Shown piece after piece: positions 31,115 to 37,359 of a DNA stretch of 64,000 bases. The DNA lies in NCBI RefSeq assembly GCF_014192715.1, contig NZ_JACHYH010000001.1, forward strand, positions 620,001-684,000. Reading direction: 5' to 3'. Numbering within the stretch: the first letter of the stretch is position 1; the number at the start of each line of letters is the position of its first letter. This stretch comes from Luteibacter sp. Sphag1AF. GTDB lineage: Bacteria; Pseudomonadota; Gammaproteobacteria; Xanthomonadales; Rhodanobacteraceae. The notes beneath the pieces were generated by a model that had not been told where the DNA came from, made no database searches, and worked only from the letters and a program-made list of their open reading frames with translations. A program made the position numbers and the translations under genes.

Positions 31115-31483
31115 TCAAGCCGGGTCTTTCTGCACATCGTGTGGAAGCGGGCTGGCTGGCGATTCGGTCGTAACAGGGCAACCCATCTTCCCGAACGGGC
31201 CGGCCTTCAGTATCGCCAGCGCTTCGGCCGGAATGAACTGAACCTTGCTGCGCCAGATGGCCGTGATCGGCGGCCTCGATTCGTTCAACAGCCGCTGCAC
31301 CATGTGCGTGGTGCGCGCCCACGTCGCCGGATCAACGTCCGCTTCAGCGGCATGCGACATCAGGTCGAGAACCGCTACCGCATCGCTGAGGCGCATGAAG
31401 ATGGCCTCGTGCAGTTTGTCGTTGCTGAGTTCCACATCGTTATGGCACGACGGACAGGGGATGGTCTGATCGGACGGATTCAT
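31115..31483 (-). CDS. Small CPSC-motif protein, unknown function
   Basis: A 122-residue cytoplasmic protein with an N-terminal zinc-ribbon half-site CPSCH (about 10-14) and one further Cys near residue 102. The middle is helical (RLSDAVAVLDLMSHAAEAD). It starts behind GGAGCCGCC. It is convergent with the kinase gene, 11 bases away. I do not recognise a family. Confidence 0.6.
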   Translation of the reverse strand: MNPSDQTIPCPSCHNDVELSNDKLHEAIFMRLSDAVAVLDLMSHAAEADVDPATWARTTHMVQRLLNESRPPITAIWRSKVQFIPAEALAILKAGPFGKMGCPVTTESPASPLPHDVQKDPA

Positions 31484-31991
31484 GGCGGCTCCATTACCTC
31501 GAAGGTCCGCCCCCTGCGATGTAGGGTGGCGGACGTGTCGGGGTAGAAAACCGGTCGTACAACCAAACCCGGCCAGGCACGAGGCCTGCCCGACACGCCC
31601 GCCATAAAGGCGTTCGCATGCACGCAGGCGGCGAACCGCCTGCGTGGTTGTACGAATCGGGTTTCTACGCCCGGCCGCCGAGGATTCGGCGACGAGGGAA
31701 GCATCCCGACTCGCCGCAGGCGTAGCCATCCGATTATTCCGAAAAAATCGTCGGAATTATTTGAGAGCGCTGAATCGGCGATGCAACACGCATCGCTGGT
31801 ATGCGATGAGTCAATTCGTAACGACACCGCACGCACGACAACACGATCAACAGAAAACACCTACACAAGAAAACGCCGCCAAACCCTTGCGCTTAGCCGT
31901 TCCAGACGATTGCGTATGACACGCGCGGTCGTTCAACACGATGCACTGTGGCTAGACTCCGCACACCCAACAGGCACGGAGCGCCGCGCAA
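31484..31991. other. 508-base non-coding region upstream of the virD4-like gene
   Basis: No convincing gene is seen. It carries a structured inverted-repeat element (31543-31668) and a second imperfect inverted repeat ATTATTCCGA / TCGGAATTAT with an A-rich loop (31733-31760). From about 31730 to the GTG at 31992 the sequence is clearly richer in A and T than the flanking genes, which fits an island boundary or promoter region. Confidence 0.5.
31543..31668. repeat. 126-bp element with imperfect terminal inverted repeats and inner hairpin
   Basis: The left arm (31543-31565, GTAGAAAA through TCGTACAACCA) pairs with the right arm (31645-31668, TGGTTGTACGA through GTTTCTAC) with few mismatches. 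Inside the right half is a perfect 11-bp hairpin, CACGCAGGCGG / CCGCCTGCGTG, with a CGAA loop (31621-31646). The whole could fold as one cruciform or RNA, or be a small non-autonomous mobile element. Confidence 0.6.
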
Positions 31992-34289
31992 GTGAACTAC
32001 CCATGGAAAGCTGTCTGCGCGATAGCGCTGCTTCTGGCGGCCATCGTCGCCGGCGCCTATGCGTCAGGCTATCTTCTGCTCGTTGTCATCAACGCAGACA
32101 TACCGCTGACCTTCCGCGTCTGGTGGGATAGCTACCGGGACGCGCAACTTCCCGAATACAAACACTTCCGCCTGAAGGTCTACATCGCGGGCATCGTGGG
32201 TTTTGGTTTGCCACTCTTTGCATGGGTGTGTTGCCTGATGCCGCTACTGAAGGCCAGGCCCCGCTCACTTCACGGTGACGCACGCTTCGCCGGTCTTCGG
32301 GATCTGAAGAAAAGCCGTCTGCTTGCCGAGTCGCCCAACGGCATCATCGTGGGCAAGTTCGGTCGCAAGCTGATTCGACTGAGCGGACAGCAGTTCGCCA
32401 TCCTTGCCGCACCCACCCGTTCGGGCAAAGGCGTGGGCGTGGTGATTCCGAACCTGCTGGACTATCAGGAATCCGTCGTGGTGCTGGATATCAAGCAGGA
32501 GAACTTCCAGCTCACCAGCGGCTGGCGCAAAGCGCAGGGCCATGAGGTGTACCTGTTCAACCCGTTCGCCGAAGACGGGCGCACCCATCGCTGGAATCCA
32601 CTCAGCTACGCGTCGCCGGACCCATCGCTTCGCATCGCCGATATCCAGGCCATAGCCGCGATGTTGTATCCGGACGCGGGCGAGGCACAGAAATTCTGGG
32701 TCAACCAGGCACGCAATGCGTTCATGGCGTTCGCGCTCTATCTGTATGAAAGCTACGACAGGGAAATCACCCTGGCACTGCCCACCTCCACGCACCGGTT
32801 TCCGACACTGGGCGAGATCTATCGACTCTCCTCGGGAAATGGCAGCGACCTGCGCAAGCATATCGAAACCCTGCGCAACAGCGATTTTTTGAGCAAGGAG
32901 GCCCAAGGCGCCTTCAACAACCTGCTGTCGCAGGCCCGAGACACCTTTTCCTCCATCATGGGAAGTTTCAAGGCGCCGTTGAATGCCTGGATCAACCCGG
33001 CACTGGATGCCGCCACCAGCGGAAACCACTTCCGGCTCACCGACGTGCGCAGAAAGAAGATGACGATCTATATCGGCATCCAGCCCAACAAGCTCGCCGA
33101 AAGCCAGTTGATCGTCAACCTGTTCTTCAGCCAGCTCATCAACGAGAACACGCGCGAGCTTCCGCAAAACGACGCAACGCTGAAACATCAGTGCCTGCTG
33201 CTGATGGACGAGTTCACCTCCATCGGGAAGATCGACATCCTGGCCAGAGCCGTGTCCTACATGGCCGGCTACAACCTGCGCCTTCTGCCCATCATCCAGA
33301 GCATGGCCCAGCTGGATGCGACCTACGGCAAAGACATATCCCGCACCATCATCACCAACCACGCGCTACAGATCATCTACGCGCCACGCGAACAGAACGA
33401 CGCAAACGACTATTCCCAGATGCTCGGATACACCACCGTATCGAGAGACACGATCTCACGCGGCGAAGCAGGACCATCACGCACACGCACCGAAGAGCGC
33501 CGCGCGTTGATGCTGCCCCAGGAACTGAAAGCCCTGGGCACCGACAAGGAAGTGATTCTTTACGAAGGCATCGCCCACCCCGTGCGCTGCCAGAAGATTC
33601 GCTACTACCAGGACAAGCGATTCACCGCACGCCTGCTTCCCCCCGTAGAAGTGGCGGCACTCACCATGGAGAGGCCTATGCCCATCGGTAAAAAGACCAT
33701 CGCCGTCGCCGCCGTCGCAGGACTGGCCGTGGCAGGGTTGTCAAAAGCATCAACGCAACCCCCGGCACCGCCCGTCCCGGCTATTGAGGCCACGACGGAA
33801 ACACCACCCCCGCCCTCAGCCAGTGACGTGGCCGAGCAAGCGGCGACGCGCTTTCTCGACTTTGTTGCTGGGTTGAGTCGTACGGCGGATATCACGCAGG
33901 CAGCGATGGAGCGTGCGTTCGATTCTCCACTGAACGAAGTTCGACCTGGTACGTACCTTGCCAAGCGTGCGGTGAGTGAAGGCTGGACTTACACCGTCGC
34001 GTACCGAGCGCCCAAGACGGATACAAAAACCGGTTTCGCTTTGCGCTTCTACAACAAAGATCTCACTACTGACCCAACGCCTGTCTGTGTCTTGGATCTG
34101 GAACGAATCCGCTCTGCACTCATTCCCCGTGGATTCAAGGAATGGACAGAGCCTCGGCATCACGGAGGCATCAGCTCATGGAACTTCGAGAAGGGAGACC
34201 TCGTTGTCTCCATCATGTCCAGTGACTTTACGGTTGATGCCAACGACCGGGAATGCATTCTTCTAGTGCAAACCTTCGACGTAAGGTAA
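31992..34289 (+). CDS. virD4: VirD4-type T4SS coupling ATPase fused to an immunity-like C-terminal domain
   Basis: A 765-residue protein. Residues about 1-558 are a VirD4 coupling ATPase: two N-terminal transmembrane helices (about 8-34 and 62-84), Walker A AAPTRSGKGVGVVIPNLL (about 139-156) and Walker B LLLMDEFTSIGK (about 403-414). VirD4 recruits effectors to a type IV secretion channel. Residues 559-765 are an added domain, beginning with a signal-peptide-like stretch (KKTIAVAAVAGLAVAGL) and homologous to both halves of the next protein. An ancestral ribosome site (GGAGAGG) and ATG (33678) are kept in frame inside the gene. The start is GTG. Confidence 0.88.
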   Translation: MNYPWKAVCAIALLLAAIVAGAYASGYLLLVVINADIPLTFRVWWDSYRDAQLPEYKHFRLKVYIAGIVGFGLPLFAWVCCLMPLLKARPRSLHGDARFAGLRDLKKSRLLAESPNGIIVGKFGRKLIRLSGQQFAILAAPTRSGKGVGVVIPNLLDYQESVVVLDIKQENFQLTSGWRKAQGHEVYLFNPFAEDGRTHRWNPLSYASPDPSLRIADIQAIAAMLYPDAGEAQKFWVNQARNAFMAFALYLYESYDREITLALPTSTHRFPTLGEIYRLSSGNGSDLRKHIETLRNSDFLSKEAQGAFNNLLSQARDTFSSIMGSFKAPLNAWINPALDAATSGNHFRLTDVRRKKMTIYIGIQPNKLAESQLIVNLFFSQLINENTRELPQNDATLKHQCLLLMDEFTSIGKIDILARAVSYMAGYNLRLLPIIQSMAQLDATYGKDISRTIITNHALQIIYAPREQNDANDYSQMLGYTTVSRDTISRGEAGPSRTRTEERRALMLPQELKALGTDKEVILYEGIAHPVRCQKIRYYQDKRFTARLLPPVEVAALTMERPMPIGKKTIAVAAVAGLAVAGLSKASTQPPAPPVPAIEATTETPPPPSASDVAEQAATRFLDFVAGLSRTADITQAAMERAFDSPLNEVRPGTYLAKRAVSEGWTYTVAYRAPKTDTKTGFALRFYNKDLTTDPTPVCVLDLERIRSALIPRGFKEWTEPRHHGGISSWNFEKGDLVVSIMSSDFTVDANDRECILLVQTFDVR
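33678..34289 (+). CDS. Possible internal start: free immunity-like protein within the virD4 fusion
   Basis: The ATG at 33678 is in frame with the fusion, 6 bases after GGAG in GGAGAGGCCT, the same arrangement that precedes the next gene's start at 34369. From here a 203-residue protein with its own N-terminal signal-like segment (KKTIAVAAVAGLAVAGLSKAS) would be made. Whether it is translated separately is inference. Confidence 0.4.
   Translation: MPIGKKTIAVAAVAGLAVAGLSKASTQPPAPPVPAIEATTETPPPPSASDVAEQAATRFLDFVAGLSRTADITQAAMERAFDSPLNEVRPGTYLAKRAVSEGWTYTVAYRAPKTDTKTGFALRFYNKDLTTDPTPVCVLDLERIRSALIPRGFKEWTEPRHHGGISSWNFEKGDLVVSIMSSDFTVDANDRECILLVQTFDVR
33821..34154 (+). repeat. Direct repeat, copy A (within virD4 fusion tail)
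   Basis: This stretch recurs at 34512-34845, offset 691 bases, with about 17 differences counted by eye over some 330 bases. It encodes the shared immunity-like domain and indicates a fairly recent tandem duplication. Confidence 0.9.
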
Positions 34290-34304: not shown

Positions 34305-34382
34305 ATGCCAAGGACACATCAGGCGCTCGATAGCGCCTCCCTGCAACTCGCCATACAGGGAGAGGCCTATGCCAATGGATAA
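34305..34382 (+). pseudogene. Truncated copy of the effector gene 5' end
   Basis: A 25-codon frame begins MPRTHQALDSASLQL, matching MPRTNQALDSALTQL at the start of the effector gene at 35638, including the preceding CAAAGGAA ribosome site. It then runs out of homology and stops. It is a remnant of a second effector copy lost between two immunity-like copies. Confidence 0.85.
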
Positions 34383-35622
34383 CAAAACAATCACCCCCGT
34401 CGCTATGGCAGCGATGGCAGTGGCAGGGCTTTCGCAAGCATCTACAAAGATCCCTGCACCGCCTGTACTGGACAGTCGGGCCACGTCGAACACACCACCA
34501 TATCCCCCTGCCAGTGACGTGGCCGAGCAAGCGGCGACGCGCTTTCTCGACTTTGTTGCGGGGTTGAGTAGTACGGCGGATATCACGCAGGCCGGTATGG
34601 AGCGTGCGTTCGATTCTCCACTGAATGAAGTTCGACCTGGTACGTACCTTGCCAAGCGTGCGGTGAGTGAAGGCTGGACTTACACCGTCGCGTACCGAGC
34701 GCCCAAGATGGATACAAAGCCCGGTTTCGCTTTGCGCTTCTACAACAAAGATCTCACTGCTGACCCAACGCCTGTCTGTGTCATGGATCTGGATCGAATC
34801 CGCTCTGCACTCATTCCCCGCGGATTCAGGGAATGGATGGAGCCTATGATGATAGGAGGACTGAGCTCATGGAACTTTGAAAAAGGGGGTTTGGTTGCCA
34901 TGATCCTGTCCAAGGATCTTTCAACCGATAGCCATGACAGGGAGTGTGTACTGTTGGTGAAAACCCGCGATAGTCCCTCCTTGCAACTCAACAGGCATGG
35001 AGAAGACTCTGAGATGGCCATCGCAACGATGGCGGCATGGGCGCGCGAAGAAAGGGAGGGATGGGCGGCCGCAGGACTGGCGACAGCCTCGGACCAGACG
35101 ACTCAGGAAGTCTCCGCAAAGCCGGTGATGCTTCAAGCCCCTGCAAGAGCAGAAACGGCTGAGCAAATTGTCGCCCAGTTCCTGAGCTTTGTTGCCGGAG
35201 TGAACGGCACCGCCGACATTACGCAGGACACCGTGGAAGAAACATTTCGCGTCAAACTGATTCGTAACAATCAAGACAGTTACTACGCGCTTCATCCGTT
35301 AACCGACCCAGGAAGCTGGAGATACTCCCTTGGATATCAACCTCCCAGCGCCACAACCAAACCGGGTGTGACCCTCGGCTTTTTCAATGATGTGCCATCC
35401 GCCGATCCAGCGCCTGTCTGTGTCATGGATCTGGAGCGATTCCGCTCTGCGCTCATCCCCCATGGATTCAAAGAGTGGACGGAGCCCGAACATCACGGAG
35501 GCATCAGCTCATGGAACTTCGAAAAAGGGGACTTGGTTGTCATGATCCTGTCCACAGATTTTTCAACCGATAGCCATGGCAGGGAATGTGTGCTGTTGGT
35601 GCGAACCCGCGACTTGAAATAA
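34369..35622 (+). CDS. Tandem-duplicated immunity-like protein (two domains)
   Basis: A 417-residue protein made of two copies of the domain that is fused to VirD4. Each has an AEQxxxxFLxFVAG-xxxTADITQ start, a PVCVMDL block and a SSWNFEKG block. Copy 1 (about 1-200) has an N-terminal signal-like segment, so periplasmic location is likely; copy 2 (about 210-417) has a degraded one. The junction at about 201-207 (DSPSLQL) is itself a relic of the effector N-terminus. It lies just upstream of the effector gene, as immunity genes often do. The immunity role is inferred from context; the fold is not recognised. Confidence 0.7.
   Translation: MPMDNKTITPVAMAAMAVAGLSQASTKIPAPPVLDSRATSNTPPYPPASDVAEQAATRFLDFVAGLSSTADITQAGMERAFDSPLNEVRPGTYLAKRAVSEGWTYTVAYRAPKMDTKPGFALRFYNKDLTADPTPVCVMDLDRIRSALIPRGFREWMEPMMIGGLSSWNFEKGGLVAMILSKDLSTDSHDRECVLLVKTRDSPSLQLNRHGEDSEMAIATMAAWAREEREGWAAAGLATASDQTTQEVSAKPVMLQAPARAETAEQIVAQFLSFVAGVNGTADITQDTVEETFRVKLIRNNQDSYYALHPLTDPGSWRYSLGYQPPSATTKPGVTLGFFNDVPSADPAPVCVMDLERFRSALIPHGFKEWTEPEHHGGISSWNFEKGDLVVMILSTDFSTDSHGRECVLLVRTRDLK
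34512..34845 (+). repeat. Direct repeat, copy B (first half of two-domain gene)
   Basis: This is the near-identical partner of 33821-34154. A third, more diverged copy of the same domain covers about 35155-35619. Confidence 0.9.
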
Positions 35623-35637
35623 ACAAAGGAAATCACT

Positions 35638-37359
35638 ATGCCAAGGACAAATCAGGCGCTGGATAGCGCGCTCACGCAGCTTGAGAACCAACCGAATGTG
35701 TCGCCCGGACAGATGGAGCAATTCAGGTCGACGCTAAAAGCAGACAAGGCCCTTCTTACGTCATTGAATGCCGCCGCAGCCTCCGGTGCGGTAAAGCACT
35801 TTGCCGTGCAGTCCGCTGACGGACAAGCCATCCCCACCGGGTACTTCGACCTCACGAGCGGTACAGTCACCCTGCCGGCAAGCTCGTTCACCCCTCCCAC
35901 CACGCGGCCATCCGCCGACCTTCGGGCCGTGTTGCGCATCCAGTCGATGGTGGTCGCTCTCGCCTCAAGGCAGTACGAAGACGAGACAGAAACAAAGCGG
36001 CTGCCCTGTGCGGAAATGATCCATAACCTGCAAGACACGTTGAACAGCTCTCCCCATCTGGCCGCCGAGCTCAAAAGGGCCGCCACCACCTACGCACAAG
36101 ACAACACCGCTCCCATGATCCTGGAGTCGTTCCAGATTCTGGGGCGCCGCGCCGGCGTCGGCGGAAGCTATGACAGTGAGCACCGTGCCCTGAACCTTCC
36201 GGGCGCCTCGCTTGTCGTCAAAGGACCCCATCACCGGCAGGGAAGTTACCGGCCCCATGACCTGACATTTGTGATCGGTCACGAGGTACAGCATGGCTTC
36301 AACAGCGCCGCCACCGCCAGGGCAGTCAGAACGTTTGGTAACGACGTTCAGAAGGTCGCGTCCACCCGGGAAGAGGCACACGACTATACGCAGATCGTCG
36401 GGCGCTTCATTCAGTCGAGCAGAGACGACGAGGCGAAAGCAGAAATTGCTGGATGGAATGCGCTTCATAGTCGTGTCCAGCAATCCAGCCCGGACGCGAC
36501 ACTCAATGACATATATGTTTCGGCACGCGGTCGGGCGGAAGATTTCTTGAAGCAGGGAGAGAATGACGACTACGTTCCCCGAGCAAACATCCACCTCAAC
36601 CCCGACCTGTCGATGCCCTTCACCCCCACCAACATCGCGGGCATGGGCGAAAACTATTTCAACCGCCCGAGCCCGTTGCACAAACAACCCGACGACACGC
36701 GGCAGGTGATGACGCTGGGCACCAAAGGCGTAGGCGACTATCCGGACTTTTACGGGAACTGGGCCGTGAAGATCATCGCGGAGGCGGAACAGAAGAGCCC
36801 GACCGTTCACGGCAAGAAACCGGAGGTGCAGATCAACATGGAGCACCTGGGCCTGCATGAAGATGTCATCGAGCCACTGGGCCTCGGTCTCCCCTCGATG
36901 CGATCGCTTCCGTATGCCGATACCAGCCGGTCGCCCGCGTCGCGGAGCCACTTCGATCACACGCTGGATGGTCCGCACCAGTTTTCGCATGTTCCCGAGT
37001 CACCCATCAGCCCGCGACCCGCCCCGTTGATGAACTCCGCGCTGCACCGCGAACTCCGCGACGCCTTGCCCGCCGAGACCTCGCCCGACCGCCTGGCGCA
37101 AATTGCGTGGGCGGTAAAGAAAGGCGGCATCGAAGCAGGACATATCCGCACGATGGATATCGAAGGCGAAAGACTGATGCTCACCGGCCTGACCCCCGGC
37201 ACCCACGCCGTCATCGACCTCAGTACGCCACCACCGCCCGCACTGGAAAGCGACAACCATTTCCATGCGCTCGTTGAACGACAGATGCAGAGGGACCTGG
37301 AGCGGCAACACGAACTGAGCCAGGAGCTACGTGGCCCGTCCATGTCGCTTTGCCGGTAG
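35638..37359 (+). CDS. Putative T4SS effector: HEXXH metallopeptidase with XVIPCD-like C-terminus
   Basis: A 573-residue protein without a signal peptide. The zinc motif HEVQH is at 215-219 within FVIGHEVQHGF, with DEAKAEIAGWNAL (about 264-276) as a likely source of the third ligand. The last 110 residues contain AWAVKKGGIEAGHIRTMDI and RLMLTGLTPGTHAVIDL and a Gln-rich tail, resembling XVIPCD, the C-terminal signal that Xanthomonadales T4SS effectors use to bind VirD4. It is 15 bases after the immunity-like gene and downstream of a VirD4 gene. Most likely an antibacterial peptidase toxin; target unknown. Confidence 0.72.
   Translation: MPRTNQALDSALTQLENQPNVSPGQMEQFRSTLKADKALLTSLNAAAASGAVKHFAVQSADGQAIPTGYFDLTSGTVTLPASSFTPPTTRPSADLRAVLRIQSMVVALASRQYEDETETKRLPCAEMIHNLQDTLNSSPHLAAELKRAATTYAQDNTAPMILESFQILGRRAGVGGSYDSEHRALNLPGASLVVKGPHHRQGSYRPHDLTFVIGHEVQHGFNSAATARAVRTFGNDVQKVASTREEAHDYTQIVGRFIQSSRDDEAKAEIAGWNALHSRVQQSSPDATLNDIYVSARGRAEDFLKQGENDDYVPRANIHLNPDLSMPFTPTNIAGMGENYFNRPSPLHKQPDDTRQVMTLGTKGVGDYPDFYGNWAVKIIAEAEQKSPTVHGKKPEVQINMEHLGLHEDVIEPLGLGLPSMRSLPYADTSRSPASRSHFDHTLDGPHQFSHVPESPISPRPAPLMNSALHRELRDALPAETSPDRLAQIAWAVKKGGIEAGHIRTMDIEGERLMLTGLTPGTHAVIDLSTPPPPALESDNHFHALVERQMQRDLERQHELSQELRGPSMSLCR

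Follow-up and report, generated by a model that had tools for sequence, protein, structure and literature searches.

In the Xanthomonadales-type, bacteria-killing type IV secretion systems (X-T4SS), the coupling proteins (X-VirD4s) recruit effectors (X-Tfes) that carry the XVIPCD docking domain (PMC6536674). VirD4s and effectors are exchangeable between Xanthomonas citri and Stenotrophomonas maltophilia, and VirD4 of X. citri can replace that of S. maltophilia (PMC6759196). The immunity proteins (X-Tfis) are encoded upstream of the effector, carry a secretory signal and have a possible alternative start, and VirB3-VirB4 fusions are mentioned for other type IV secretion systems (T4SS) (PMC6536674). 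In the present study, a stretch of 64,000 nucleotides from Luteibacter sp. Sphag1AF (contig NZ_JACHYH010000001.1, positions 620,001 to 684,000 of the forward strand; the whole stretch is called the window) was analysed, in which an X-type VirD4 continues in frame into a domain of a putative immunity family. Up to about residue 560, the VirD4 of the window belongs to the same ATPase family as the X-T4SS VirD4s of X. citri and S. maltophilia and, like these, has two N-terminal helices. It differs from them in being an orphan, encoded outside the virB clusters, and in carrying an additional C-terminal domain of the immunity type of 205 residues.

The fused VirD4 frame and its C-terminal domain

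The frame at positions 31992-34289 of the forward strand was read as 765 codons without an internal stop in the open reading frame translation. Its parts are as follows.

31992..33665, + strand: orphan X-type VirD4 coupling ATPase core, residues 1-558 (PF02534, hydrophobic peaks, Walker motifs)
33666..33677, + strand: junction, residues 559-562 (equal length in four fusions, gap-free alignment)
33668..33674, + strand: Shine-Dalgarno-like GGAGAGG ahead of the in-frame ATG at 33678 (anti-Shine-Dalgarno duplex); an identical sequence precedes the open reading frame at 34369
33678..33755, + strand: signal-peptide-like segment, residues 563-588 (KK, a 14-residue core rich in Ala, Val and Gly, then SKA/ST; no lipobox cysteine)
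33813..34280, + strand: putative X-Tfi-type immunity domain fused to VirD4, residues 608-763 (family alignment, AlphaFold2)
34086-34088 and 34254-34256, + strand: conserved cysteine codons of the fused tail (C137 and C193, tail numbering)

PF02534 (T4SS-DNA_transf) spanned residues 117-554 of the core (E 2e-109; 366.9 bits against a curated cut-off of 20.1). Two membrane helices were recognised as N-terminal hydrophobic peaks at residues 7-25 and 68-86, and a Walker A motif (PTRSGKG) and a Walker B-like motif (LLLMDEF) were found in the translation by eye. VirD4 relatives of the type with 62-68% identity end at residue 559-563 or thereabouts, one of them at 570, and the second virB-linked VirD4 of this genome (L022) has a length of 582; the fused frame thus runs well beyond the ordinary X-type VirD4 end at about residue 560. 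The original prediction, made from the letters alone, had read the frame as uninterrupted from VirD4 into a domain of about 200 residues and had placed the usual VirD4 end near the junction, and both statements were confirmed.

A second fused locus was found about 760 kb away in the same genome (core 99%, tail 79-80% and effector 93% identical). Two further genomes of the genus, Luteibacter sp. OK325 (G116) and G110, carry the fusion as well, with cores of 69-70% and tails of 36% and 27% identity. Because of the second, equally fused locus and these two genomes, a sequencing or assembly error is excluded and the fusion is real; the stop codon or frameshift near 33660, named beforehand as evidence that would overturn the prediction, is contradicted by the same recurrence. 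All four fused proteins were aligned without gaps from the VirD4 end through the hydrophobic segment. Synonymous divergence (dS) of the cores between genomes amounts to 0.7-1.4, and the length of the junction is nonetheless equal at the four loci.

Of the 233 family genomes searched, with at most 13 candidates scored per genome, 24 contain the tail domain, and the only listed frames of at least 700 residues were the four fusions. In the order, it was detected in 57 of 398 genomes (up to 8 candidates scored per genome); here, five further frames of at least 700 residues were obtained, with no VirD4 in the surrounding 10-kb stretches. A domain common in ordinary VirD4 proteins would have spoken against the original prediction; instead, the fusion proved rare, with four loci in three genomes across the family and none more among the candidates scored in the order.

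No family in Pfam or NCBIfam matched residues 563-765 above the cut-off (DUF2277 remained below it, E 0.09). The tail family was described from its own members, which were gathered from the loci by profile. Thirty-six of them were aligned (alignment A2), with the window and the fused loci represented by their own references in place of duplicates. Left out of this alignment, and hence of the cysteine count, were one disrupted copy, one fragment at a contig end and the weak relative L064:13841. C137 and C193 are invariant in all 36 members, the four fused ones included. A lipobox was found by a simple pattern in 16 of 30 stand-alone relatives (32 frames were scanned; the fused paralogue and its disrupted neighbour, both without a lipobox, stand outside the 30), and the lipobox cysteine is absent from the fused tails. 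The two invariant cysteines suggest a disulfide and hence the periplasm. Because of these cysteines and of the lipoboxes in about half of the stand-alone relatives, a periplasmic location is favoured, and the tail domain probably works there. In the AlphaFold2 model of the tail, the block-mean pLDDT was 95-98 over tail residues 51-200.

The assignment of the tail rests on gene neighbourhood. The effector search gave 33 matches, from which 15 with less than 100 bits (docking domain only, or fragments) were excluded. For 17 of the 18 Luteibacter effector homologues that remained (at least 130 bits), a tail homologue precedes the gene on the same strand at a distance of 22-177 bp; for the eighteenth (G115), one was found by profile. 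Since its homologues stand directly upstream of effector homologues, the tail is placed in the family of putative immunity proteins (X-Tfis) that goes with the nearby HExxH effector. The earlier description of the added part as an immunity-like domain is borne out by the neighbourhood of these 17.

At three of the four fused loci, no intact antidote candidate other than the fused domain is present within the cassette. At the paralogous locus, the free copy is broken by in-frame stops. In G116 and G110, a free copy is lacking between virD4 and the effector gene; in G110, the fused tail is the sole family member found besides a fragment of 61 residues, and in G116 a weak tail relative is located about 4.5 kb off, ahead of another effector. 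Two stand-alone relatives of the immunity domain in this genome (L026 and L027; G000:C2:94909 and C2:461082) were found with no effector homologue of the same family beside them and are possible orphan immunity genes.

Downstream of the fused frame, the following features were annotated.

34305..34382, + strand: short remnant of an effector-gene 5' end (similarity to the start at 35638, by eye)
34369..35622, + strand: free-standing tandem immunity protein with two domain copies (77% and 49-50% identity to the fused domain)
35638..37359, + strand: putative X-Tfe effector (homologue searches)
36280-36294, + strand: HEVQH motif of the effector, residues 215-219 (HExxH invariant in 10 of 10 aligned homologues)
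37000..37356, + strand: divergent XVIPCD-type docking domain, effector residues 455-573 (profile-profile comparison)

The two copies in the next protein, at the identities listed, agree with the original prediction, which had noted the domain twice there. The effector 5' remnant is probably the scar of a tandem duplication of the immunity unit. The effector itself is a putative zinc peptidase (HExxH); no Pfam family matched its catalytic part above the cut-off. Effector matches were obtained in 15 of 23 Luteibacter genomes (E <= 1e-5, this genome included), some of them via the docking domain only. At L025 (G000:C15), two effector homologues are split or truncated, and the immunity genes upstream are still open.

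Orphan VirD4 cassettes and the effector docking domain

Two observations go beyond the original prediction: the VirD4 of the window is an orphan within an effector cassette, and the docking domain of its effector is divergent. This genome has six X-type VirD4s against two VirB4/VirB10 clusters. The VirD4 of the window is located on contig C1, and the VirB4 and VirB10 matches of the genome are confined to contigs C2 and C6. The 23 Luteibacter genomes gave 58 VirD4 matches (E 1e-100), of which 22 have a VirB4 within 40 kb; the other 36 have none in this range. Exclusion of three on fragmented assemblies (G114, G117:C33:24783 and G124) left 33 orphans; G117:C33:1558 (L125), 23 kb from the excluded G117:C33:24783, was kept, and orphan status is approximate in fragmented assemblies.

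A frame of the XVIPCD type follows within 3.3 kb downstream on the same strand at 29 of the 33 orphan loci, a share that leans towards the finding, as the calls were made with a profile iterated from the same loci and with no background rate. At the remaining four, the effector is located upstream (L132) or the contig ends within 1.5-3.5 kb (L024, L125 and L130). The first listed next gene starts -13 to +61 bp from the virD4 stop at 21 of the 29 unfused orphan loci. By eye, 11 of the next genes at the 29 unfused loci have a lipobox and nine belong to another family that does not look secretory. The fused locus is thus the extreme case of a general virD4-tfi-tfe cassette, and the orphan cassettes may be the more general discovery.

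Further observations were made on these loci. The region at 31187-31773 of the window, a stretch of about 600 bp that precedes the fused virD4, is common to the paralogue (82%), to a further orphan virD4 locus, L023 (74%), and to L029 (75%), a locus with a VirD4 fragment, and forms a shared upstream region of the cassettes. The fragment at L029 (G000:C14:22175-22555) comprises the N-terminal part of a VirD4, with about 126 matched residues, and is likely a further, decayed copy. In addition, this genome encodes seven VirD4-like proteins that are highly divergent (25-27% identity) and have frames of about 800 amino acids (stretches L156, L157, L158 and L161 among them). Six of them were fetched, and a conserved protein of 416-420 amino acids is encoded directly downstream in all four for which the downstream DNA was read. 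At L138 and L147 (G110) and L139 (G106), a similar partner has an XVIPCD-like C-terminus; the profile found none in the partners of this genome. Together with their partners, these proteins may be a second class of orphan coupling protein and effector pairs. Effectors with two domains of the XVIPCD type, a central and a C-terminal one, were found beside the orphan VirD4s of L121, L123, L124, L127, L118, L126, L135 and L136.

The C-terminus of the window effector was missed by PF20410 even at E <= 1. Profile-profile comparison with the canonical XVIPCD gave a probability of 98%. The effector-family profile, which includes five canonical members, matched the solved XVIPCD 7mu9 (E 0.03) and 9p3h/7r6s (about 1e-4). 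PF20410 matched five of the ten members of the effector family (the tenth is a piece without docking domain). Tested singly, it confirmed two of the five homologues that have no VirD4 beside them, and it gave no match in the window, G116 and G110 effectors at the fused loci. The docking part of the paralogue effector is 98% identical to that of the window.

Effectors of the three fused-locus lineages share 51-58% in the docking part against 37-48% in the catalytic part. The proportions are reversed against five complete homologues with no VirD4 in the 12-20 kb read around each: the window effector has 45-47% in the catalytic and 17-23% in the docking part, the G116 effector 51-54% and 21-27%, and the G110 effector 40-42% and 28-31%. 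From these values we infer that the orphan VirD4 and the docking domain of its effector may form a private pair.

Origin and possible function of the fusion

In a tree of 58 VirD4s, the four fused proteins and two of G109 formed one clade with a support of 99/98 (nine "cluster" labels of the tree were given by sequence type only: seven to other genera, and L044 and L059 to proteins on contigs without VirB4). Of the two VirD4s of G109, one is without a tail; in the other, a stop follows after about 30 additional residues in the same register. A single fusion with later loss or decay in G109 would be the simplest account; the tree needs two changes and is no proof of it. Comparison of the two copies of this genome gave a synonymous divergence of 0.05 for the core; within the immunity domain, it rose from 0.23 in the first part to 0.89 in the last. 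This pattern looks like recombination with the neighbouring tandem copies, by which the antidote would be free to vary with the motor unchanged.

The Kyte-Doolittle peak of the signal-peptide-like segment is 1.59 in the window, against 2.17-2.27 for VirD4's own helices; over the four fusions, the values are 1.54-1.62 against 1.85-2.46. A small-x-Ala motif closes the segment in all four (by eye). Given its lower hydrophobicity compared with the VirD4 helices and this terminal motif, the segment looks more like a cleavable signal than like a firm anchor, and its cleavage is no less likely than tethering. The original prediction had proposed a third membrane helix by which the domain is held in the periplasm. 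The periplasmic part of this proposal is favoured by the cysteines and lipoboxes; the lasting anchor is called into question by the weak segment, the small-x-Ala motif and the internal ATG. Tethered, cleaved and separately started tail products are all possible.

A slight preference is given to the explanation that the fusion is made, that its tail reaches the periplasm and protects the producer against the neighbouring effector, and that its VirD4 part couples this effector to a shared channel. The locus would be an effector cassette, virD4-tfi-tfe, apart from both virB clusters. The orphan VirD4 would join the shared VirB channel and recruit the neighbouring effector via the divergent XVIPCD. 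The virD4 stop would have been lost in this lineage, and translation would now continue into tfi, whose product forms the C-terminal end of VirD4. Through the short hydrophobic segment, the immunity domain would be routed via Sec to the producer's periplasm, where the conserved disulfide could form. There the tail would neutralise leaked effector, whether it stays at the inner membrane next to the channel or is freed by signal peptidase. With one chain, the coupling protein would never be made without the antidote, and the internal start may top up free immunity protein. In X. citri, an X-Tfi protects mainly the producer against its own effector, even without a working T4SS (PMC10933484), and an antidote in a fixed ratio with the effector's coupling protein would fit this role in self-protection. 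Secretion via the shared channel, the periplasmic location, the inhibition and the adaptive reason are what we infer in this explanation.

Several points weigh against it. The third hydrophobic segment is weak. In the window, it is open reading frame (ORF) 34369, with its two free domain copies, and not the fused copy that adjoins the effector gene; in the window and the paralogue, the adjoining copy is free or disrupted, respectively, and the fused copy stands before it. The tail model gave no significant match among solved structures, and Foldseek gave none for the effector model at E <= 0.001. The G109 copies in the same clade show that the fusion is not essential. VirD4 distances correlated with docking-domain distances (r 0.65 over 29 orphan loci, 0.77 and 0.50 in two subsets), and this correlation may stem, in part or alone, from linkage; this set was confined to loci with a downstream effector, which excluded four, and it retained L113 and L116 with a partial docking match, the full effector being located further downstream. 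In the case of Smlt3025, its effector was neutralised by the version predicted to begin at the signal and not by longer ones (PMC6759196), an argument against an export signal that lies 560 residues inside a protein. Finally, all four junctions contain an in-frame ATG with a Shine-Dalgarno-like sequence.

The last two points lead to a different and rather doubtful account, in which the genes overlap: the immunity protein would be made mainly from the ATG at 33678 with its own Shine-Dalgarno sequence and be exported normally, and the fusion would be a tolerated by-product of the lost stop. Apart from the shorter start required by Smlt3025 and the possible alternative starts described for X. citri X-Tfis (PMC6536674), it draws on the short distances between virD4 and the next gene at the unfused orphan loci and on the duplex energies at the junction (-6.4 kcal/mol in the window and the paralogue, -11.3 in G116 and -5.0 in G110). 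No other ATG of the core is equally good in the window (0 of 20) and in G116 (0 of 17). The signal is not unusual everywhere, however: one of 20 core ATGs in the paralogue and two of 17 in G110 are equally good, as are 7% (window), 8% (paralogue), 1% (G116) and 27% (G110) of in-frame positions. An internal start is thus plausible, with the strongest case in G116 and an unremarkable one in G110. As there is no stop codon between virD4 and the tail, ribosomes translating virD4 must also make the tail, and the fusion is produced whenever VirD4 is. A fusion that is merely tolerated should show an indel or a stop somewhere in four junctions, and they show none. The weak hydrophobicity of the segment would suit a cytoplasmic gatekeeper, for which the segment is not inserted and the immunity domain stays on VirD4 in the cytoplasm, shielding the docked effector. 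Cytosolic X-Tfi forms have been proposed earlier (PMC6536674), but the two cysteines, invariant also in the fused members, and the lipoboxes of the stand-alone relatives argue against this account and make it improbable. That the tail is a neutral or decaying relic without consequence is considered very unlikely. Most or all of it is absent in G109, and it evolves much faster than the core; on the other hand, comparison of the two copies of this genome gives a dN/dS of 0.09 for the core and of 0.31 for the tail (the latter value blurred by the apparent recombination), the fusion is kept in three genomes, and the tail is the only intact immunity domain in its position at most of the fused loci.

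A wider picture is offered tentatively, in which Luteibacter would possess a plug-in arsenal: the VirD4 of each cassette would be matched to a private docking domain of its toxin and use a shared VirB channel, and in one lineage the plug would have been welded to the antidote in a fixed ratio at the channel mouth.

Relation to described secretion systems

In a search of open-access papers, the phrase "orphan VirD4" was not found, and "coupling protein", "immunity domain" and "type IV secretion" were never found together; among the matches listed, no title or beginning of an abstract describes a VirD4-immunity fusion. The fusion is conserved and, as far as these searches reach, undescribed; known parts are newly combined in it, and it is not a new kind of system. 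It bears on two questions, the choice of cargo by T4SS coupling proteins and the means by which a producer escapes damage from the toxins it makes. As a natural link between coupling protein, antidote and effector, the fusion directly indicates which of them belong together, and about 30 natural pairs of VirD4 and docking domain are available in the orphan cassettes of one genus for tests of specificity.

In contrast to the exchangeable VirD4s of X. citri and S. maltophilia, the pair in the window includes an effector with a diverged docking domain. By profile comparison, the C-terminus of this effector appears related to the XVIPCD of the X-Tfes; the effector differs from them in that PF20410 misses this domain in the window, G116 and G110, and in its HExxH catalytic part. 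The tail family resembles the X-Tfis in being encoded upstream of the effector and in its possible alternative start; the segment before the tail is signal-like, weak as a membrane helix and located 560 residues inside the frame. X-Tfis are usually free (lipo)proteins, whereas the tail is joined to a coupling protein, has no lipobox cysteine and has no significant match to a solved fold. The VirB3-VirB4 fusions are likewise in-frame fusions of T4SS proteins, but they unite two parts of the machine; here, a part of the machine is united with a protein of the immunity type.

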